From Branchiostoma floridae (lineage: Eukaryota > Chordata > Leptocardii > Amphioxiformes > Branchiostomatidae), in NCBI RefSeq assembly GCF_000003815.2, contig NC_049981.1, positions 6,252,951-6,316,950 on the forward strand: a DNA stretch of 64,000 nucleotides, in the 5' to 3' direction. Each line of letters opens with the position of its first letter. Position 1 is the stretch's first letter. A program made the position numbers and the translations under genes. A model generated the notes under the pieces. It was not told the DNA's origin, searched no databases, and worked only from the letters and a program-made list of their open reading frames with translations. This document shows, piece after piece, positions 50,401-64,000 of this stretch.

Positions 50401-53400
50401 CATTGATCAAGACATGGCTTGAAAAAAATTTGTTTCAAATGCTCTGCATTTTTTCCATATGAAAACATGCTAAGTCTTGCAGGTACAATGTATACCAGGT
50501 AAGAAGTTCAAGACAAAAACCTATGTATTTCTGGAACTAAATCATGAAATGTTAGCCAAGCCTTCAAGCAGATTTCAGCTTTCTTTGTTCCATGCACTCT
50601 ATTCTCATGTACAAAACAATCTTTTAATCTCATCTATGAGAAAGAAAAAGAAAGAAAATCCCATATAAAATCCCCATGTGGACATCAACTTTAACTGCTC
50701 TTGTTTAAACCACTGATTGCTTTAGATTTGTAAATAATTAACGGTCAAAACTGCGCAAGCTGTACAAGAATTTGATAACAGAAATGCAAAGACCTTGAAT
50801 AATGGGAAGAATTATTGCTTTTTCAAATAAGGATGAAATGTCAAGCTTTATAATACAAGCAAAACTGTTAACCATAACTTCAACCTAAAGCTTTTGATCA
50901 GTAAAAAAAATGACTTTCCAAAAGTAAAGTAACCAGTGTTTCAATATTCACACCACCGACGTCTAACAGCGTTTTTCTGGAGAGCGGAAATTGAGAGCGT
51001 GAACGTTTCTATTCACCGTGGTTCCCCGCCAGAACTGGCGGATCTCTCCGCGCCGACAGGCCACGAAGGTGGCGGTGAGGAGCGTGCAGGGCACGAGGTA
51101 GAGCAGAGCAGGCTGGGCGTTCTTCATGAACACCAGCGCGAAGAACGTGATGATCATTCCGACACCGTACGCTGTGGTGGGAAACAGAAAACACTTAGTG
51201 ATGAGGTACAGTAGCGCCGGCTGGGCGTTCTTCATGAACACCAGCGCGAAGAACGTGATGATCATTCCGACACCGTACGCTGTGGTGGGAAACAGAAAAC
51301 ACTTAGTGATGAGGTACAGTAGCGCCGGCTGGGCGTTCTTCATGAACACCAGCGCGAAGAACATGATGATCATTCCGACACCGTACGCTGTGGTGGGAAC
51401 CAAAAACACTTAGTGAGTAGTGTACAGGGCACGAGGTAGAGCAGAGCAGGCTGGGCGTTCTTCATGAACACCAGCGCGAAGAACGTGATGATCATTCCGA
51501 CACCGTACGCTGTGGTGGGAAACAAAAACACAAAGTGAGGATGTACAGCAGTGCAGGCTGGGCGTTCTTCATGAACACCAGCGCGAAGAACGTGATGATC
51601 ATTCCGACACTGTACGCTGTGGTGGGAAACAAAAACACAAAGTGAGGATGTACAGCAGTGCAGGCTGGGCGTTCTTCATGAACACACACACATTCAACAA
51701 CAATTCGAAACATTATTTTCAAAAAGCTGACAGTAGAGATGGCTTGTTAACTGTCACAACAACAGCAGAACAGGAACTGACTTAGGACATTTCATTTGTT
51801 TGTTTGTTAAAAATCCTGGCCACAACAGTTGCAGAATATCTTTCTTTAGTGATTACTACCAACAGTAGCCGGTGTAGGTGCTTTTTGGTATGGTTCAGAT
51901 TAAAACCACACTGTATACAGCAGCCAAAGTGAGTATTCTACCACTAGGGCAATGCTGTGGCTTCATAGACTTGATGTAGCGACCATTGAGACAAATTTCC
52001 AGACTTACCTACTAGTGTTGCGAGGTAATAGATGCCCCAGCTTCCAATCTTGGTGTCAAAATACTTGCAGAATGCAATGAGGAGACCTGTGGAGATAAAA
52101 AAAAGGACATACAATCTTAACAACAAATATGAGCAAATGTGATGATTTTAAATACAGATCTAGATAGTCTGGAGAGGTGCTTTCAATTTATTTGTTGCTA
52201 GCTCCTGGGTTGATTTTAACTGCAAGTTAAAATAATCCAGAGACCCGGTCATGGATCAAAATTGCCTGGTAGCCATAGGGTGTCCCAAGGAGACACGTAG
52301 GGGTCGCCAGAAAGTGCAGGAAAACAGTCAGCCAAATTCAAAGGGGCCCCTTTTTTTTCAAAATGAGACCTTAGCATTAGAAGGGATTGCAACTGACTGA
52401 GACAGTCTGAGACAGTAAATGTAGATGGACTAAGTGCAATCATGCCATAGTCACCTGGAACCAGGATGTCCCCGAACCCCAGTAGTGAGTAAGGATTGCA
52501 CATGGCTGAGCCGGAATGTCTCAGACTGGGAACCTTCAGCACCATCGGGATCTGGGGTAAGGGACAAAGGGCAAAGGTTAAGGGTCAGTCATGTAAGGAC
52601 AAAGGGCAAAATGTTTTAGGGAGCTTACATGTAAAATAAAACATGTATGTACATGCATCTGGGTATACACACTTTGCCAGTGTATCACATACATTTTTTA
52701 GCAACACAAGAATTGCTACATATCAAACTGAAAAACCTCGCATATCTAACTCCAAGTCCAAGTTTTGTCTAAAGCTAACACTTAAAGTAGCTTTTATCGA
52801 TGAAGGCTTCTTACTCACTCTAAAGCTAGAAAAATGCCTTCTACAATATTCAAGAATCACAACAATGACATTCACTAAGTATACAATTGCTTGAAGTTGA
52901 AGGAAACGTTATATCTCATGCACTGGAGGCATAAAAAAAAGGACTGACGGAAGCTTATTATAAGAAGAAAATTACCTGCTCTGTGGCATCAGCAGGTCCT
53001 GTGGCAACGTCTACCATCACACTGGTCTGACTCTGGGTGAAATACATGGACAGAAACAACTGTCAATTAACACATCGGCATACATGTAACTTACATGTGT
53101 AGAAACCTTAGGTACAGAAACAGGGAAAACCTGGCATCTTATAATAGCTGCACAAAATTTAAAAAAATTGGTTCAAAACTAAACTAAACTAGACAGAATC
53201 TCTTATAATAACACATCTTTACAGTAAAATCATGATGCAAAACGGAAAAATTTTACCTTGTGGTTAGCTGTATTTTGTACATAAATACACTCATTCACTA
53301 ATATTGCACTAAAGTTAAACATCTTTAACACACGATTTTGTATATTTTTGGCCATCATAACAAATTAAGACCACTCCAATATATTTGTTTAGTTCTTGGA

Positions 53401-56400
53401 AATTCAAAAGTGAAGATTTAGAAACAAAAAACTGAAAACAAAGGGTTGGAAGGAAACTCAAAGCTAACAGTGTATTTAATTTTCACTTTAAAATACTATT
53501 TGCAGCAAAACAAAAACTTTCCCCTCAGAATCAGTTTTTGTGTCACCATTTTCATTTAGTTCAACAGAACTTATTTCCTAAATCTGATAAACAACCGATT
53601 GTATTGGTGTGGGCTTACATAAGATAAAACACATACTATTGGCAGCAAACAATCCTTGGTGCACCCTCCATTCTATGACCGTCACAGTACAAACTTTTGT
53701 CAAAGACAACTTACTTTTCTGCACACAGTCACAAAACACTGTTCTTTGACATAACAAAACGTTTTTGTCAACATTCACAAACGTTCCCCTCAAAGAGGGC
53801 AATGAGAAATCCACAAAGTAAAATTGGAGAAAAGAACACAAACAAAAGATTAACAGGTGGTTAAAGCAGGGCTTTCTCCAGCTTTAGATTTTTTGTTTTT
53901 CCTTTCAGTTTGAGAAAGCAAATTTCTATATCGAGCATCAAAGGCGAGAGGAATTTAAAGGGTCTGTGGGTCAATTAATTTTTTTTCCCACTTTTTAAAA
54001 TGTTATCTCCTGCATTTTGAAGGGCAAATTTTTAATGGCCTTTCTGGCAATTGATGATAATTACAAAATGTTTTTGATTTTTGGTGGGGTTTTTGTTTGT
54101 CCTGAGCAGCAAATTTCGGGTAAACGCACTACTAGTAAACTGTTGAACACAACCCACTACCACTTGACTAGCCCCTTTTCAAGCAGCCTATGTGGCCCAA
54201 GGGCTATAAAACAGATGGGCACCACCTTTGTGCACTGAAAAGTGTGGGAAAGGTTTGAATTCTTTCTAACAAAGTTAACAGGTTGAGCTGGAGGAGGATG
54301 GCTGGAGAGAGCCCTGGGAAGAGTCAGGGAAAGAAACGGAGGAATTTGGTGCCTCACCTTGGCGAAAAGAGGGATAATGAAGACAAAGAACACGTCACAG
54401 ACAAGGAGGGAGCAGCAAAAGATCGTACAAGCCTGTGTGACAACCGAGAAGGAAAAAATAAAATAACGGGCAAGTCCACTGTCAGCTCAGGGAGGAGAGG
54501 GTGGAAGGGGGAGCTAAACCTTTTAAGCAAAAATAAAGAGCAGTGTTTATGTGGCGATGTCATTTTTTCATCAAGAAAAATTTGGGAAGAGTTGTCTGAC
54601 AATATTAAATTTTGTATATCAAGAAAAATAATATGTCTTGTACAACATCGTGGAATTGTTCCATATCAATATGGAACCTTAAAAGTTGCAAATGGCTTTT
54701 TAAAACAAAAAGGACTTAAAATTCATTTTAATGGCTTTTAAAAAAGGCATTGAACTTTAAGCTTTTACATTTGCTAATGGTATTCTGACTTTTTCCAACA
54801 TTCTTATAACAAAGAGTATCATCAATTTTAAGGTAAAAGAAAGTATCTTATCAATTCTAAGATTCTAAAACAAGAAATTTCCCAAGAATAAGGTACATCT
54901 TTAAAAAATTAATACAAAGAACACTCTGAAATCAACTTGAATCCAGAGATAAAAGTATTTTTCTATAATTTTCTGTTTTGAAATTTTGAGGTTTGAAAGA
55001 AATTTGAATTCTCCCCTCTTCCCCTCTCTTCCCTTCTGAGATGGCAGCAGACCTGTCCACATGTGCTTTGACTACTGGACTCACCTTGGTGAGAAGTGGG
55101 GTTATGAAGACGAAGAAGATATCATACACAAACAACGCTGCTAACAAGATCGTGCAAACCTGCAGGGAGAAACTCACGGTCATGCTTTGTCTTTTAGGAA
55201 GGAACATGTGTGTGTAAAATGTTACATGTAGAATGATGTACATTATAGAATGTAGGCCACTTTACTCTATTTTGAAACTGTTGTACTTAGACATCATAGT
55301 CTACTAGTCTATTGTAGACTACAATTTTGTAAGTGTAAGAGAAAAAGTAGAAGTCTACTTTAGAAGTCTACGATACATTACAGTTACTAAGTAACTTTTC
55401 ATTTATCATTACATTCAGAAAACAGCTTTAGTCTACAAGAGAAGTAGATTAATGTGTAGTACGAGTTTCAGAAAACAAGCATACAATATTCAAGTTAGAT
55501 TAAGTGCAAAAGCAGAGATATCCAATTGAAATCCTGATGTACTGTAAAGCAATGTACATTTCTTACTTTCATTGAGAACATTTGAAATATATGATACAAA
55601 TTGAATGTACAATTAAGATTGGTCAACATGACTTGAAACGAGTGTCATGTTTTGACAGCATTTCACTTTTCCATGCATGCAATTAAATATATCAGGAGAT
55701 TAAACTTTAATTTAAAGCAGTTATTGCATAAGGCATATTCAGCAATATTGAAAATAAAGATGAAGATGAATCAAATTTAGACTTTCTTGCCTTTGTGATT
55801 TTGAAGTACAAATGCAATTTTACACTAAGATGTCTTTGTACAGTCAAACCTGTCTATAAGTGACCATTAAAATTTGTAACAGTGGACAGGTGGTTACTAC
55901 ATAATGTATAGATAGGATTCTTTATGCTTGTGTCAGTAGCAAGAAGAACAATTTAGCTACGTTTACTAGATGATCATCATACAAAGTAGCCCGGGTACCA
56001 TCCGGATAGTAGTTCGCTCCTATGTTCGCTTCTACTGTCCGTCTGGAGACTTGGACATTCAAACCGTTTGGTGGTAAAATCAGTTAATGAGCAAATCAGG
56101 AATGGGTTCTAGAGCGCTGGTTCCATGACAGGACCTCCCGCAAGTGAATAGGTGGGCCTCTCCGGTGTTCGAACATCGGTTCAAACGAGCGCTTGAATTC
56201 AATCCATAATTCGCTTATATGTGGGTACCAAACAGTGCCTGCGTCCAAAAGTTGGACGATTCCAGACGTCAAGATGGTCCGCATTCCCAGACGGAAACAC
56301 AGAGATGCAACTGTATATAGTGTATAGTGAACATCAGAGCTAGAAGCGACTGTATATTGTATATTATTAAATGAACGTCGGAGCGAACTACTTTCCGGAT

Positions 56401-59243
56401 GGTACCCAGGCCACATGCAAAGGTGGTCACTAAGCAAAGGCTTAACTGCTTTTTCTCAAAACTTTTGAGGTCCTTACCATGAAGCTCGGCAGACGTATTG
56501 TCTTGAGCATGTAGATACTGAAAGCTATCCCTAGGCCGTCTTGGAGAATCCATGCCCAACTGTCAGATATAAGACACAAAGTTAACTTCACGTACTTGTC
56601 TTCGAACATTATTAACCTTTGTATTAAGTAAATTCTATGGATGACATCTGCGTGTATATCAATTTTCACCCAATGATTGTACTAAATGTAGAAGTGACAC
56701 TAGCGAGGAAACCATGACTGTGGTAATTGTTGAAGTGAAACTAGTTGGATAGTTGTGAAGGTGGCACTAATATCGAAGTCAGGAGTGTAGTTGCCATTCA
56801 TATTAGCTGTACCAGTCTACTCACACTCACTCACTCTGGCGAGCTCTACTACACATACAGTACTTTAGTAAGCAAACATTTCAAATTGTGACTGCTCATT
56901 TTAACAACATTTTATGGCACTACTTTGAGTTGTGACTTTAAGACAAGAAAAGGGGCTTATTCCTACCGTTCTTTTCTGAAGATGAACCAGATGAGGGAGA
57001 CTGTCAGACAGCATGTTGCAAGGATGATGGTCTTCACACGGGGGCGCTTTTTCAACAGAGGCAGCTTGTTCTCTGGAATTCTACAGGGAAAAAATGAAGA
57101 AATACGAGTCAACTCCAGAAATTCAAGGGGTCTACTAGCACAGTGACTGAACATGTGATTGAATCCTTACCTATCCAATGTCTACATACATGTATCAGAT
57201 CGTTGCTAACTCATAAAGCTAAGTAGGAATTTCTTTTTTTTTTAATCGTGAGGTCATGTGCAACAAAGAACTTTGATCCCAACAGATGTATGTTTGCACA
57301 ATAGCAGAAAAGGGCTGCACATACACAGATGTGACATTCCTGTGTAAACTTTGAGGAGTAATAAGTCATACATTGTTAAAGAGACCACCACATTTCCTAA
57401 AGAGTATGGTCTGGTGTGTGAGGGCTGAAAAGACTATGTCTAGCCACTACCAAGGAAACTTGTACATCATCAACCTAGCACAACTACGTTCACTGATGAA
57501 GGATAGCGAGGAGAGGAGAAGGAGGGTCCAGCATGCTTCCCGTGTTGGCATCTGACGATGTTCTCGATCGACCGACCGACCGTTACCTGTAAGCTTAAGG
57601 CAGTCTTTCAGTTGCTCTAAAAAAAGAAGAGACTAGAGACTTAGGACAAACAAACACAGAGTCCCAACCTGCAGTTTCCTGGTAACCAGAGCACCAGGGG
57701 CAGCAGACACACGTACAGACCAGTCGCTGACGCAAAGCAGAAGATGAAGATGATAACGTACACTGGAGAACATAAGACCAGTTTCGATATTAGGAGGGAT
57801 ATTTGAAAAACTTCATCTCAAATCTTTTTCATCTTCAGTTTTGACAAGTCTGTCAGAAGTCAGAAGCTCTGAGGAAGATGTCTGACAGAGATCATAATAC
57901 TAGGTAAGAGACACTACTCATTGTGCAAAAAAAAACCCTCCAATATCTAGACCAGAAATTTTGTTTTGGGGTTGTTTTTCCTCTTATCTGCATGCGCCTA
58001 TCTAGATTTATCTGATTTATCTGTCTTTCGTGTCTGTCTCTGTGTGTGTGTGTGTGTCTGTCTTTGTGTGTGTCTATCCGTCTTCTTGTGCGTCTTTCCA
58101 TCAATCTCACTGTATGTATCTGTGCATGCATGTGAGTGACTGTCTTTACTAAGATTTTTTCCAATCTTAAAAAGCACAAAAATCAGAGATTTCAAGACAT
58201 ACAGTTGTGTGTGTAACACAATATTAAATAAATTCTGATTAACAGTTTTATAACAGCTACATAAAGAGAAAGCCCCAAATCTGACCTAAGTAGTTGTAGA
58301 AGAAGTAGAGCAGCAGCAGCAATGCACAGATCATGAAGACGAAGATGGCGATGAACTTGGGAGAGATCTCCACAGTCTCGATGAGCTGCTCCTGCTCCTC
58401 CTCCTGTGGTACCTCCTCCTCCTCATCCCCATCCCCATCTCTCTCCCCATCCTCTGCTGTGTACTGTCTCCTCTTCTTATGCTTCTTCCTGTTCAGACAT
58501 AGAGTGATAATTATTAGGATGTGATTAGTAAAAAATACAGCCAGGGCTACCCAACTAGCCAAAGGTTATAATCAGGAAATTAAACAGCTACATGTACATT
58601 ACGTTTACTGATACACAAGATCTATTTTTTTTCGGAACTGGTTTATACAGACAACACAAGATGCAGACAACTTTGATCTGTGTTTACTAGTGAGGCTAGC
58701 AGTCATAATATCTGTGATGCTATCTAAGATTCAATTAATAAATAATACCCTTCAATCAGTGACTCTTTTCAAAAGCATAAACACATACCAACAAATTTTG
58801 AGAGTACAACACTACATCTGAGACTTTCATAGATCTTGGACCAAGTCTCAGACCTAGTCTTGTGCTCTCGCGAGACTACCAGTTGGTCACTCCGTTCAAG
58901 GTTCAAGGTCACGTCAGTTACATGAAATACATACATGCACTGAACAATAGAAGAAGTCAGTGAAACTTTGGTTGATAGTCTCAAAACAGTACACTTTTGG
59001 GATATTGAATCTAGAACAAGTGAATAGATATTTGGATTTCTCAACTTAACCTAAACCAGAGTTATTTCTTAAGACAGCTAGAGATATGAACATGAAGCAT
59101 ACTTACTTTCCCTTGGCCGTCCCAGCCCAGTACCCCCCCACCCCTACAGTAAAGACTGCCATGAGCCAGATCACGATGAGGTTATACTCCATCAGGGGCT
59201 CTGGGGGGGAGTACATGGACACCTCCAGGTCTGCTCCCAGGGA
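47188..59243 (-). CDS. SPPL2: Signal peptide peptidase-like 2, C-terminal 454 residues (11 exons)
   Basis: Exons in transcript order (plus coordinates): 59243-59107, 58488-58286, 57762-57669, 57080-56967, 56559-56478, 55159-55085, 53032-52976, 52551-52455, 52086-52009, 51171-51017, 47460-47188. Phases match at every junction and the sum is 1365 nt. The product is the multi-pass protease domain of an intramembrane aspartyl protease. It has the first catalytic Asp in LFVYDIFFVFITP, the second in LLGFGDILVPG, and the QPALLYLVP (PAL) motif. Family members cut type II membrane stubs such as TNF or CD74 fragments in endosomes/lysosomes. A poly-acidic loop (EDGERDGDGDEEEEVPQ) lies between the first two membrane segments. 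The tail is acidic and Pro/Ser-rich, ending KHVTIQT. The signal peptide and PA domain exons lie right of the window or in the gap. Confidence 0.95.
47461..51016 (-). other. SPPL2 last intron
   Basis: 3.6 kb without another recognisable exon. A perfect 28-bp tandem duplication lies at about 48656-48714 ('gaaagtgcttttactccgtg' repeated). A minus-strand frame at 49906-50136 has no family resemblance. Confidence 0.6.
51017..51171 (-). CDS. SPPL2: SPPL2 exon: PAL motif, TM9
   Basis: Encodes YGVGMIITFFALVFMKNAQP then ALLYLVPCTLLTATFVACRR and GEIRQFWRGTT. PAL is needed for active-site conformation in the family. Acceptor TGTTTCCCACCACAG, donor ACG|GTGAAT. Its acceptor half is repeated at least four more times just upstream (see 51172-51690). 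Confidence 0.95.
51172..51690 (-). repeat. ~108-bp minisatellite repeating the acceptor half of the PAL exon
   Basis: Beyond the true acceptor (exon start 51171), full copies of acceptor plus coding start recur with exon-start positions 51279, 51387, 51509 and 51616 (steps 108, 108, 122, 107). A partial copy follows at about 51660-51680. Each copy restates TTTCCCACCACAG and the codons for AYGVGMIITFFALVFMKN plus AQPALLYL, without a donor. The first three units are in one open frame: each 108-bp step adds exactly 36 codons. Confidence 0.95.
52009..52086 (-). CDS. SPPL2: SPPL2 exon: TM8
   Basis: Encodes LLIAFCKYFDTKIGSWGIYY then LATLV between ATCTCCACAG and TAG|GTAAGT. It joins in frame to GLLIAFC after LVPG and to AYGVG of the next exon. 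Confidence 0.93.
52455..52551 (-). CDS. SPPL2: SPPL2 exon: GxGD second catalytic aspartate
   Basis: Encodes IPMVLKVPSLRHSGSAMCNP then YSLLGFGDILVP. GFGD is the diagnostic second active-site motif. Donor CCAG|GTGACT, acceptor TTACCCCAG. Confidence 0.96.
52976..53032 (-). CDS. SPPL2: SPPL2 exon: VMVDVATGP linker
   Basis: 57 nt encoding SQTSVMVDVATGPADATEQ, phase 0-0, between TTTCACCCAG and CAG|GTAATT. VMVEVATGP-like sequence follows the first catalytic segment in all SPPL2 proteins. Confidence 0.93.
53033..54357 (-). other. SPPL2 intron between alternative exon and linker exon
   Basis: No further exon seen; AT-rich with chance frames only. Confidence 0.6.
54358..54432 (-). CDS. SPPL2: SPPL2 alternative exon 'CD' version
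   Basis: 75 nt, phase 0-0, one open frame encoding ACTIFCCSLLVCDVFFVFII then PLFAK. 14 of 25 residues match the YD exon, including the catalytic Asp and the FFVFI-PL segment, but the active-site Tyr is Cys. The splice sites look functional: TTTTTTCCTTCTCGGTTGTCACACAG-type tract (pyrimidine-rich) and AAG|GTGAGG. Many differences from the YD exon are at third codon positions. Swapping it in keeps frame; including both would add 25 hydrophobic residues. Best read as a mutually exclusive cassette; a decaying duplicate is the alternative. Confidence 0.8.
55085..55159 (-). CDS. SPPL2: SPPL2 exon 'YD' version: first catalytic aspartate
   Basis: 75 nt, phase 0-0, encoding VCTILLAALFVYDIFFVFIT then PLLTK. 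YD is the first active-site motif of presenilin/SPP proteases. Acceptor TTTCTCCCTGCAG, donor AAG|GTGAGT. A second version is 650 bp downstream at 54358-54432. Confidence 0.95.
55840..55912. mobile_element. MITE fragment in SPPL2 intron
   Basis: 'acagtcaaacctgtctataa', 'gtgacc' and 'ggacaggtggttactacata' match the 'agtgaccacctgtctacata' stretch near 6370-6390. A partial inverted-repeat element. Confidence 0.4.
55989..56411. mobile_element. ~420-bp TIR element in SPPL2 intron
   Basis: CCCGGGTACCATCCGGATAG then TAGTTCGCTCC at the left is mirrored by GGAGCGAACTACTTTCCGGA then TGGTACCCAGG at the right, giving TIRs of about 36 bp. Interior non-coding. It lies 67 bp from the donor of the WAWILQD exon. 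Confidence 0.8.
56478..56559 (-). CDS. SPPL2: SPPL2 exon: WAWILQD / TM5
   Basis: Encodes WAWILQDGLGIAFSIYMLK then TIRLPSFM, one of the most conserved stretches of the family. It ends in phase 0 (ATG|GTAAGG), directly compatible with either version of the next exon. Confidence 0.95.
56967..57080 (-). CDS. SPPL2: SPPL2 exon: IPEN loop and TM4
   Basis: Encodes IPENKLPLLKKRPRVKTIIL then ATCCLTVSLIWFIFRKE. The IPEN-LP and KRP signatures match SPPL2. Acceptor CCTGTAG, donor AACG|GTAGGA. Confidence 0.93.
57669..57762 (-). CDS. SPPL2: SPPL2 exon: TM3
   Basis: Encodes YVIIFIFCFASATGLYVCLL then PLVLWLPGNC between CTCCAG and GCAG|GTTGGG. The ASATGLY segment is conserved in SPPL2 proteins. Confidence 0.93.
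58018..58140. repeat. (TGTC)/(TG) microsatellite
   Basis: A mix of TGTGTG and TGTCTG units in an SPPL2 intron. Confidence 0.8.
58286..58488 (-). CDS. SPPL2: SPPL2 exon: basic/acidic loop and TM2
   Basis: Begins with completion of a Lys codon, then KKHKKRRQYTAEDGERDGDG, an acidic run, and the hydrophobic segment FIAIFVFMICALLLLLYFF. Donor TTAG|GTCAGA. Acceptor context (CTATGTCTGAACAG) is weakly pyrimidine-rich. Confidence 0.93.
59107..59243 (-). CDS. SPPL2: SPPL2 first visible exon (TM1 of the protease domain)
   Basis: Starts after CCCCTCCCCAG with SLGADLEVSMYSPPEPLMEY, then NLIVIWLMAVFTVGVGGYWA and GTAKG, and ends AA|GTAAGT. YSPP-P and the WLMAV...GYWAG segment are family hallmarks. Its first ~65 bp and acceptor are the seed of the 94-bp minisatellite to the right. 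Confidence 0.93.
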
Positions 59244-62030
59244 CTGGGGAGGGAGAAACAAGAAAACTACATCAGGTTATACATGTACTCCATCAGGGGC
59301 TCTGGGGGGGAGTACATGGACACCTCCAGGTCTGCTCCCAGGGACTGGGGAGGGAGAAACAAGAAAACTACATCAGGTTATACTCCATCAGGGGCTCTGG
59401 GGGGGAGTACATGGACACCTCCAGGTCTGCTCCCAGGGACTGGGGAGGGAAAACAAGAAAACTACATCAGGTTATACTCCATCAGGGGCTCGGGGGGAGT
59501 ACATGGACACCTCCAGGTCTGCTCCCAGGGACTGGGGAGGGAAAACAAGAAAACTACATCAGGTTATACTCCATCAGGGGCTCTGGGGGGGAGTACATGG
59601 ACACCTCCAGGTCTGCTCCCAGGGACTGGGGAGGGAAAACAAGAAAACTACATCAGGTTATACTCCATCAGGGGCTCGGGGGGAGTACATGGACACCTCC
59701 AGGTCTGCTCCCAGGGACTGGGGAGGGAAAACAAGAAAACTACATCAGGTTATACATGTACTCCATCAGGGGCTCTGGGGGGGAGTACATGGACACCTCC
59801 AGGTCTGCTCCCAGGGACTGGGGAGGGGAAAACAAGAAAACTACATCAGGTTATACTCCATCAGGTGCTCCGGGGGGGAGTACATGGACACCTCCAGGTC
59901 TGCTCCCAGGGACTGGGGAGGGAGAAACAAGAAAACTACATCAGGTTATACTCCATCAGGGGCTCCGGGGGGGAGTACATGGACCCTCCAGGTCTGCTCC
60001 CAGGGACTGGGGAGGGGAAACAAGAAAACTACATCAGGTTATACTCCATCAGGGGCTCCGGGGGGGAGTACATGGACACCTCCAGGTCTGCTCCCAGGGA
60101 CTGGGGAGGGAGAAACAAGAAAACTACATCAGGTTATACATGTACTCCATCAGGGGCTCTGGGGGGGAGTACATGGACACCTCCAGGTCTGCTCCCAGGG
60201 ACTGGGGAGGGGAAACAAGAAAACTACATCAGGTTATACTCCATCAGGGGCTCCGGGGGGGAGTACATGGACACCTCCAGGTCTGCTCCCAGGGACTGGG
60301 GAGGGGAAACAAGAAAACTACATCAGGTTATACTCCATCAGGGGCTCCGGGGGGGAGTACATGGACACCTCCAGGTCTGCTCCCAGGGACTGGGGAGGGA
60401 AAACAAGAAAACTACATCAGGTTATACTCCATCAGGGGCTCTGGGGGGGAGTACATGGACACCTCCAGGTCTGCTCCCAGGGAGTGGGGAGGGGAAAACA
60501 AGAAAACTACATCAGGTTATACTCCATCAGGTGCTCCGGGGGGGAGTACATGGACACCTCCAGGTCTGCTCCCAGGGACTGGGGAGGGAAAACAAGAAAA
60601 CTACATCAGGTTATACTCCATCAGGGGCTCTGGGGGGGAGTACATGGACACCTCCAGGTCTGCTCCCAGGGACTGGGGAGGGAAAACAAGAAAACTACAT
60701 CAGGTTATACTCCATCAGGGGCTCGGGGGGAGTACATGGACACCTCCAGGTCTGCTCCCAGGGACTGGGGAGGGAAAACAAGAAAACTACATCAGGTTAT
60801 ACTCCATCAGGGGCTCCGGGGGGGAGTACATGGACACCTCCAGGTCTGCTCCCAGGGACTGGGGAGGGAAAACAAGAAAACTACATCAGGTTATACTCCA
60901 TCAGGGGCTCCGGGGGGGAGTACATGGACACCTCCAGGTCTGCTCCCAGGGACTGGGGAGGGAAAACAAGAAAACTACATCAGGTTATACTCCATCAGGG
61001 GCTCTGGGGGGGAGTACATGGACACCTCCAGGTCTGCTCCCAGGGACTGGGGAGGGGAAACAAGAAAACTACATCAGGTTATACTCCATCAGGGGCTCTG
61101 GGGGGGAGTACATGGACACCTCCAGGTCTGCTCCCAGGGACTGGGGAGGGGAAACAAGAAAACTACATCAGGTTATACTCCATCAGGGGCTCCGGGGGGG
61201 AGTACATGGACACCTCCAGGTCTGCTCCCAGGGACTGGGGAGGGAAAACAAGAAAACTACATCAGGTTATACTCCATCAGGGGCTCTGGGGGGGAGTACA
61301 TGGACACCTCCAGGTCTGCTCCCAGGGACTGGGGAGGGGAAAACAAGAAAACTACATCAGGTTATACTCCATCAGGTGCTCCGGGGGGGAGTACATGGAC
61401 ACCTCCAGGTCTGCTCCCAGGGACTGGGGAGGGAGAAACAAGAAAACTACATCAGGTTATACTCCATCAGGGGCTCCGGGGGGGAGTACATGGACACCTC
61501 CAGGTCTGCTCCCAGGGACTGGGGAGGGAAAACAAGAAAACTACATCAGGTTATACTCCATCAGGGGCTCCGGGGGGAGTACATGGACACCTCCAGGTCT
61601 GCTCCCAGGGACTGGGGAGGGAAAACAAGAAAACTACATCAGGTTATACTCCATCAGGGGCTCCGGGGGGGAGTACATGGACACCTCCAGGTCTGCTCCC
61701 AGGGACTGGGGAGGGAAAACAAGAAAACTACATCAGGTTATACTCCATCAGGGGCTCCAGGGGGGAGTACATGGACACCTCCAGGTCTGCTCCCAGGGAC
61801 TGGGGAGGGAAAACAAGAAAACTACATCAGGTTATACTCCATCAGGGGCTCTGGGGGGGAGTACATTTGTACATGGACACCTCCAGGTCTGCTCCCAGGG
61901 ACTGGGGAGGGAAAACAAGAAAACTACATCAGGTTATACTCCATCAGGGGCTCTGGGGGGGAGTACATTTGTACATGGACACCTCCAGGTCTGCTCCCAG
62001 GGACTGGGGAGGGGAAACAACAACAGTGAC
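59180..62030 (-). repeat. ~94-bp minisatellite repeating an SPPL2 splice acceptor (30 acceptors)
   Basis: Starting inside the first visible SPPL2 exon, a unit of 91-103 bp (mostly 94) repeats about 30 times. On the minus strand each unit has the intron end TTTTCTTGTTTCCCCTCCCCAG-like tract, the AG acceptor, and codons for SLGADLEVSMYSPPEPLMEY. It then runs NLM and stops, because the exon/intron junction is fused at 'taacctgatgtag'. Variants: G-run length, T/C at 'ggctctgg'/'ggctccgg', an added 'catgta', and an added 'tttgta' in the last two units. The non-multiple-of-three period leaves all three plus frames open for over 870 codons; these are artefacts. Confidence 0.97.
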
Positions 62031-62941: not shown

Positions 62942-64000
62942 GGGAAACAAAAAAAATACGCCCGGTTATCCTCCTTTGGCGTTTCGGGGGGGGAGGGAAT
63001 GTACACCGCCCCGTTTAACCTCTGGTTTTGGGGAGGGGAAGCAAGAAAACTTCACGGGGTTATCATCGATCCGGGGCTTTGGGGGGGGGGGGAAGGAAAC
63101 TTCCATCTCAGGTCTCAGTTCCTGGGGAGGGGGAAGCAAAAAAACGACAACTGGTTATTCTTGTCCTCCATCGGGGGTTCGGGGGGGGAGAACATGTACA
63201 CCTCCAGTTCGGTTCCCGGGGAGTGGGGAGGGGAAACAAGAAAACGTCATCAGGTTATACTCCCTCAGGGGCTCGGGGGGGGAGTACATGGACACCTCCA
63301 GGTCTGCTCCCAGGGACTGGGGAGGGGAAACAAGAAAACTACATCAGGTTATACTCCATCAGGGGCTCTGGGGGGGAGTACATGGACACCTCCAGGTCTG
63401 CTCCCAGGGACTGGGGAGGGGAAACAAGAAAACTACATCAGGTTATACTCCATCAGGGGCTCTGGGGGGGAGTACATGGACACCTCCAGGTCTGCTCCCA
63501 GGGACTGGGGAGGGAAAACAAGAAAACGAGCATCAGGTTATACTCCATCAGGGGCTCCGGGGGGGAGTACATGGACACCTCCAGGTCTGCTCCCAGGGAC
63601 TGGGGAGGGGAAACAAGAAAACTACATCAGGTTATACTCCATCAGGGGCTCCGGGGGGGAGTACATGGACACCTCCAGGTCTGCTCCCAGGGACTGGGGA
63701 GGGGGAAACAAGAAAACTACATCAGGTTATACTCCATCAGGGGCTCCGGGGGGGAGTACATGGACACCTCCAGGTCTGCTCCCAGGGACTGGGGAGGGAG
63801 AAACAAGAAAACTACATCAGGTTATACATGTACTCCATCAGGGGCTCTGGGGGGGAGTACATGGACACCTCCAGGTCTGCTCCCAGGGACTGGGGAGGGG
63901 GAAACAAGAAAACTACATCAGGTTATACTCCATCAGGGGCTCCGGGGGGGAGTACATGGACACCTCCAGGTCTGCCCCCAGGGACTGGGGAGGGAGAAAC
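62942..64000 (-). repeat. Second block of the 94-bp SPPL2 acceptor minisatellite
   Basis: About 11 units. The first three next to the gap are heavily substituted and the remaining eight are near-identical to the left block. The array continues past the window edge. Confidence 0.95.

Follow-up and report, generated by a model that had tools for sequence, protein, structure and literature searches.

A diverged duplicate of the catalytic TM6 exon in the SPPL2 gene of Branchiostoma floridae, a probable alternative exon

Introduction

The Tyr beside the catalytic Asp of transmembrane helix 6 (TM6) is part of the YD motif common to presenilin and SPP proteases. In the window analyzed here, meaning the whole stretch of 64,000 nucleotides of Branchiostoma floridae DNA, an SPPL2 gene carries two exons for this helix, one with the canonical motif (the YD exon) and one in which Cys takes the place of the Tyr (the CD exon). 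The locus thus raises the question of whether the second exon is used by the gene, and what an SPPL2 protein built with it would do. A natural isoform with a kept Cys, if true, would be a ready-made experiment on the role of the Tyr beside the TM6 Asp, and would mean that splicing can retune an intramembrane protease. If the CD form were in addition active with another specificity, this would be a presenilin-type protease whose active site is altered naturally, under the control of splicing.

Our preferred answer is that the TM6 exon was duplicated in tandem long ago, giving the SPPL2 gene a second such exon, and that this exon is a used alternative that swaps TM6. Judging from the DNA sequence, we put the probability of this reading at about two in three (0.66), a figure that covers use of the exon and not activity of the protein. 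Transcription of the CD exon, its use in place of the YD exon and an altered activity of the product are what we infer from the comparisons below.

The SPPL2 gene and its two TM6 exons

On the minus strand of the window, exons from 57080 to 50963 encode the catalytic half of the protein, matching human SPPL2A and the Pfam family Peptidase_A22B. Human SPPL2A (PDB 9k92), which belongs to the same peptidase family, A22B, over the catalytic half, aligned with residues 11-218 of the 219-residue query at a phmmer E-value of 7.4e-72; the SPPL2 subfamily label refers to this catalytic half only, and was given because no PDB entry other than SPPL2A matched at E up to 0.001. The gene was divided into the following features.

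56967..57080, minus strand: SPPL2 exon upstream of the TM5 exon, IPENKLPLLKKRPRVK...FRKE, with donor ACG/GTAGGA (aligned to human SPPL2A)
56478..56559, minus strand: TM5 exon WAWILQDGLGIAFSIYMLKTIRLPSFM, whose one donor (last base 56478) lies ahead of both candidate alternative exons (sequence, SPPL2A alignment)
55085..55159, minus strand: YD exon, canonical catalytic TM6, 75 nt, phase 0-0 (sequence, SPPL2A alignment, donor score)
54433..55084, minus strand: intron separating the YD and CD copies, 652 nt (sequence)
54358..54432, minus strand: CD exon, diverged duplicate of YD, 75 nt, phase 0-0, stop-free, Tyr replaced by Cys, Asp retained
52976..53032, minus strand: exon 3' of CD (SQTSVMVDVATGPADATEQ; SQTSVMVDVATG, the SQT exon) with the common acceptor, first base 53032
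52455..52551, minus strand: exon bearing the second catalytic Asp, LLGFGDILVP, GxGD motif (SPPL2A alignment)
52009..52086, minus strand: TM8 exon LLIAFCKYFDTKIGSWGIYYLATLV (SPPL2A alignment)
50963..51171, minus strand: PAL-motif exon, open to the stop at 50963
51095..51685, minus strand: tandem array of a 108-bp unit, 5.4 copies, covering the PAL exon on its acceptor side and separate from the YD/CD duplication

The family motifs are present, namely YD in TM6 (FVYDIFF, in the YD exon), GxGD in TM7 (LLGFGDILVPG, exon 52551-52455) and PAL in TM9 (NAQPALLYLVP). Unlike SPPL2a/b, the putative CD isoform has CD for YD (LVCDVFF in the CD exon), so that one residue of the family motif is missing while the Asp is retained. 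Against the Peptidase_A22B profile, which has a curated cut-off of 23.3 bits, the protein scored 257.8 bits with the YD exon, 237.7 with the CD exon and 199.2 with neither.

Homology of the two exons and their splice sites

The YD exon (55159-55085) reads VCTILLAALFVYDIFFVFITPLLTK and the CD exon (54432-54358) reads ACTIFCCSLLVCDVFFVFIIPLFAK; each is bounded as AG/.../GT and contains no stop codon. The two align without gaps over their 75 nt, with 51 identical nucleotides and 14 identical residues out of 25, and the 24 nucleotide differences are distributed over codon positions 1, 2 and 3 as 7, 5 and 12. Relative to YD, the CD exon exchanges the active-site Tyr for Cys and gains two more Cys, with the FFVFI-P-K core and the Asp kept. 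The initial annotation had described a duplicated catalytic SPPL2 exon in YD and CD versions, and the duplication proved real in its length (75 nt each), phase (0-0), identity (14/25 residues) and spacing (652 nt); a direct reading of LVCDVFF against FVYDIFF likewise confirmed that the CD copy keeps the Asp, exchanges the Tyr for Cys and is free of stops.

The homology of the two exons is certain at the sequence level. Across the 64-kb window, read in all six frames, the runner-up 25-residue match to YD had 8 identical residues, against 14 for CD, which rules out the CD exon as a chance open reading frame. Elsewhere in the three introns, 12 stretches of 75 nt lie between AG and GT; four of these are open, and the best of the four agrees with YD at 5 of 25 residues. 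When the CD peptide was compared with the whole genome assembly (513 Mb, 431 contigs) at E up to 10, in a search that scores its best candidates only, it matched two loci, the YD exon and its own position. We discarded an allele or second gene copy as a source of the exon, as DNA queries of 361 bases around CD and 401 bases around YD matched the window alone in a search that skipped very common words; the genome DNA search with CD and its flanks showed a single haplotype for this region. No further duplicated exons were found for TM4, TM5, SQT, GFGD or TM8 on the minus strand of 64000-50900, where the best off-target matches had 6 to 10 residues.

Splice sites were scored with approximate human consensus frequencies. 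Among the 421 GT dinucleotides in 58000-51700, the YD donor ranked 1st and the CD donor (AAG/GTGAGG) 2nd, and among the 358 AG dinucleotides the YD acceptor ranked 8th and the CD acceptor 18th. These ranks (2nd of 421, 18th of 358) bear out the earlier judgment that both sites of the CD exon are sound. When the interval was widened to 64000-50900, including the repeat arrays, the donors were again 1st (YD) and 2nd (CD), of 916, with the acceptors 47th (YD) and 81st (CD) of 809.

Age of the duplication

Synonymous divergence between YD and CD was 0.93, 0.82 or 1.00 by three counts drawing on some 17 synonymous sites; bootstrapping set its lower 2.5% limit at 0.35 and left it unbounded above. 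Because dS is about 0.8-1.0, we regard the duplication as old. Alignments of the intron flanks of YD and CD did not rise above mononucleotide shuffles for any of the four flank pairs (P = 0.07-0.47), and the long divergence claimed at the outset is upheld by both the dS of 0.82-1.00 and these unalignable flanks.

At the cephalochordate synonymous rate of 4.65e-9 substitutions per site, with the time unit taken as years (PMC12862219), a dS of 0.35 to 1.0 corresponds to approximately 38 to 108 million years, a rough conversion in that the dates underlying this rate differ from those of PMC5430900. At the pedigree rate of 5.89e-9 per generation given in the same paper (PMC12862219), the corresponding figures are approximately 30 to 85 million generations. 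In the dating of PMC5430900, B. belcheri separated from B. floridae and B. lanceolatum at 28.2 Ma and Asymmetron split off at 46.0 Ma; the paper adds that earlier estimates were two to four times older. Judged by divergence, a CD copy should be found in other Branchiostoma on the younger dating, and not necessarily on the older ones.

Constraint on the CD exon

The nonsynonymous divergence of YD and CD was 0.31-0.33, and dN/dS was at least 1 in 2.9% of 2000 bootstraps. The pairwise ratio is an average over the CD branch and a YD branch under constraint, and for CD alone it may be nearer 0.6. We compared the CD exon with simulated neutral drift, in which YD was the ancestor and exactly 24 differences were introduced into each of 4000 copies per setting, over nine settings that combined three transition biases with 0, 4 or 8 synonymous changes assigned to the YD branch.

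The result depended on the property compared. Stop-free neutral copies sharing 14 or more residues with YD arose with P = 0.0195 to 0.24. Among stop-free neutral copies, BLOSUM62 similarity to human SPPL2A reached the CD value with P = 0.0017-0.028, and hydropathy did so with P = 0.001-0.010. The two properties jointly, with stops counted as failures, gave P = 0-0.0008 over the nine settings. For the Pfam comparison, the first 20 of 30 stop-free neutral copies made (21 others having been dropped for stops) were scored; they ranged from 217.1 to 238.3 bits, and one of the 20 exceeded the 237.7 bits of CD. The shortfall of CD in this profile may be due to the profile rewarding Tyr. Retention of the Asp together with seven chosen residues had P <= 0.001, to which we give no weight, as the residues were picked after seeing CD. 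GC3 is 0.64 in CD and in YD, and the GC content of the three introns is 0.33-0.37.

The initial annotation had argued that the conservation of the exon points to selection. That argument is weak on identity alone (P = 0.02-0.24) and on the Pfam score (1 of 20), and stronger on the joint test of SPPL2A similarity and hydropathy (P at most 0.0008). Taken together, these sequence comparisons suggest that, over most of its existence, the CD exon continued to encode a membrane helix, though they do not prove that it still does; a function of the exon is likely.

The same measurements bear on the possibility that CD is a relict, an exon that was once functional and is now unspliced or spliced only as noise, so that the change of Tyr to Cys and the additional Cys would be early signs of decay. 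Such a history would account for the loss of the YD-motif Tyr and for a Peptidase_A22B score 20 bits under that of YD, and both the identity test and the one neutral sequence in 20 that beat CD's Pfam score are compatible with it. A decaying exon is nevertheless difficult to reconcile with a sequence that has no stop or indel, a near-optimal donor, a sound acceptor and exonic GC3, and simulated drift almost never reached the joint SPPL2A similarity and hydropathy of CD. Late decay after long selection is still compatible with these observations; overall we consider a relict unlikely.

Expected effect of the Tyr to Cys replacement

A close comparison is the presenilin 1 (PS1) mutation Y256S, in which, as in the CD exon, the Tyr just before the TM6 Asp is replaced by a small residue. 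It differs from the CD case in being a human disease allele, in having Ser rather than Cys and in affecting a presenilin rather than an SPPL2. Y256S is described as an allele of familial Alzheimer disease that shifts cleavage, showing normal endoproteolysis, high Abeta42 besides Abeta43 and altered substrate crosslinking (PMC6945062). A second study groups Y256S with mutants whose high Abeta43 accompanies severely impaired PS1 function, and its simulations show a helical stretch around Y256 moving D257 out of active distance (PMC9929099). Given the latter report, the analogy may point to partial loss of function.

On account of these Y256S data (PMC6945062, PMC9929099), our preferred mechanism is one in which the enzyme still cuts, with cleavage changed or weaker. 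The tandem-duplicated TM6 exon would have stayed a working splicing unit, and the TM5 exon would be joined to CD instead of YD by the spliceosome in certain cells or at certain stages. The resulting SPPL2 would have a different sixth helix that retains the FFVFI-P-K core along with the catalytic Asp, and that has Cys at the position of the active-site Tyr and two further Cys. By analogy with PS1 Y256S, the likeliest outcome would be an active protease with product and substrate preference changed or reduced. The full form of this proposal, in which two intramembrane proteases come from one SPPL2 gene by a swap of the helix with a catalytic Asp, the CD form being active with a different cleavage specificity, perhaps since before the living Branchiostoma species, is tentative and on balance doubtful.

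A CD helix could instead fold and be unable to cut without the Tyr, so that the isoform would bind substrates or compete with the YD form. This would be a sub-case of alternative-exon use and its odds overlap with those given above; we hold it to be about as unlikely as a relict. The absence of the YD-motif Tyr and the displacement of D257 by a helical stretch at Y256 in the PS1 simulations (PMC9929099) would fit a dead scaffold, whereas the retained Asp would be needless in one, and PS1 Y256S is still active (PMC6945062).

Joint inclusion and mutual exclusivity

The use of CD as an alternative exon does not by itself imply that YD and CD exclude each other, as had been proposed for this locus. 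We found no feature that supports mutual exclusivity. At 75 nt the exon length is divisible by three, the introns are of the GT-AG type and the copies are 652 nt apart; of the simple exclusion mechanisms (short intron, U2/U12 mismatch, frame incompatibility), none applies at YD/CD. No selector-like sequence common to the flanks upstream of YD and CD rose above shuffles. In a test of ungapped complementarity between introns, the pairs I1-I2 and I1-I3 were at chance, and I2-I3, the introns flanking CD, reached 37 against a maximum of 36 in 60 shuffles, through an AT-rich stretch that is too weak to claim. The test showed no convincing intron pair for competing RNA structures. One-or-other use of YD and CD is offered here only as a hypothesis.

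These properties leave room for CD to act as a cassette or decoy, included together with YD or skipped along with it to give an in-frame, misfolded or inactive SPPL2 that would lower output or be dominant negative. Length and phase permit all four splice combinations (YD, CD, both, neither), each in frame and stop-free over the exons joined, and a 652-nt intron with ordinary GT-AG sites poses no barrier to double inclusion. There is also a precedent in a described PS1 splice form without exon 8, and thus without D257 (PMC3962361). That form resembles the present case in that a member of a related protease family is alternatively spliced at the exon for the catalytic Asp of TM6, but it drops the exon and D257, whereas in SPPL2 the second exon would substitute and the Asp would be kept. 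Double inclusion would insert a 25-residue hydrophobic stretch between the catalytic Asps and presumably upset the topology, and a decoy has no need of the resemblance to a working TM6 that CD has kept. A cassette or decoy role appears quite improbable to us.

Comparison with known exon duplications

Tandem homologous exons that are mutually exclusive are a known kind, represented in a human data set (PMC5740500), and CD shares with such exon clusters a homologous neighbor, equal length and phase, and compatible splice sites. YD and CD resemble them in being adjacent homologues of identical length and phase with the same neighbors and no stop. They differ in that nothing we found would enforce exclusivity, whether by frame incompatibility, by U2/U12 mismatch or by a short intron. 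The term 'SPPL' is absent from the main text of PMC5740500. In the open-licence literature, including that on amphioxus and covered partly by titles and the first parts of abstracts, we came across no account of an SPP/presenilin protease in which splicing exchanges a catalytic helix.

Minisatellite arrays and other observations

Amphioxus genomes contain mirage minisatellites, which are copies of exon-intron boundaries (PMC3087553), and arrays of this boundary type occur in both the SPPL2 gene and an SPP-like gene of the one genome. Like mirage minisatellites, the SPPL2 arrays carry copies of exon-intron boundaries; the CD exon, unlike their near-identical tandem units, copies one exon as a whole, splice sites at both ends included, and lies 652 nt from YD with 32% divergence. 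A mirage origin of the CD exon was rejected because no tandem array covers YD or CD and the flanks of CD differ from those of YD.

Within the SPPL2 gene, the 108-bp array at 51095-51685 (5.4 copies) holds acceptor-like and PAL-motif coding sequence, and is thus of the mirage type at a catalytic-motif exon. A 94-bp unit is repeated 29.9 times at 59179-62020 and 8.8 times at 63029-64000 (the window end), the latter also readable as 5.1 copies of a double unit; a run of N lies between the two 94-bp arrays, which span the start of the SPPL2 exon SLGADLEVSMYSPPEPLMEYNLIVIW. In the SPP-like gene (G000:C2:25016804-25017328; L027 4804-5328), a 58-bp unit forms an array of 9.1 copies over the donor side of that gene's own YD exon, and among the eight copies listed one has YV for YD and one contains a stop.

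The intron before the YD exon contains a MITE-like inverted repeat at approximately 55985-56420, with arms near GGTACCATCCGGA...AGTAGTTCGCTC. A contig of 942 bases (C90) was considered as an SPPL2 copy and rejected, as by eye it matches the SPP gene. This contig (G000:C90:1-942; L016) carries, again by eye, a variant piece of an SPP exon together with degenerate copies of an exon-donor boundary, and is perhaps an unmerged haplotype.
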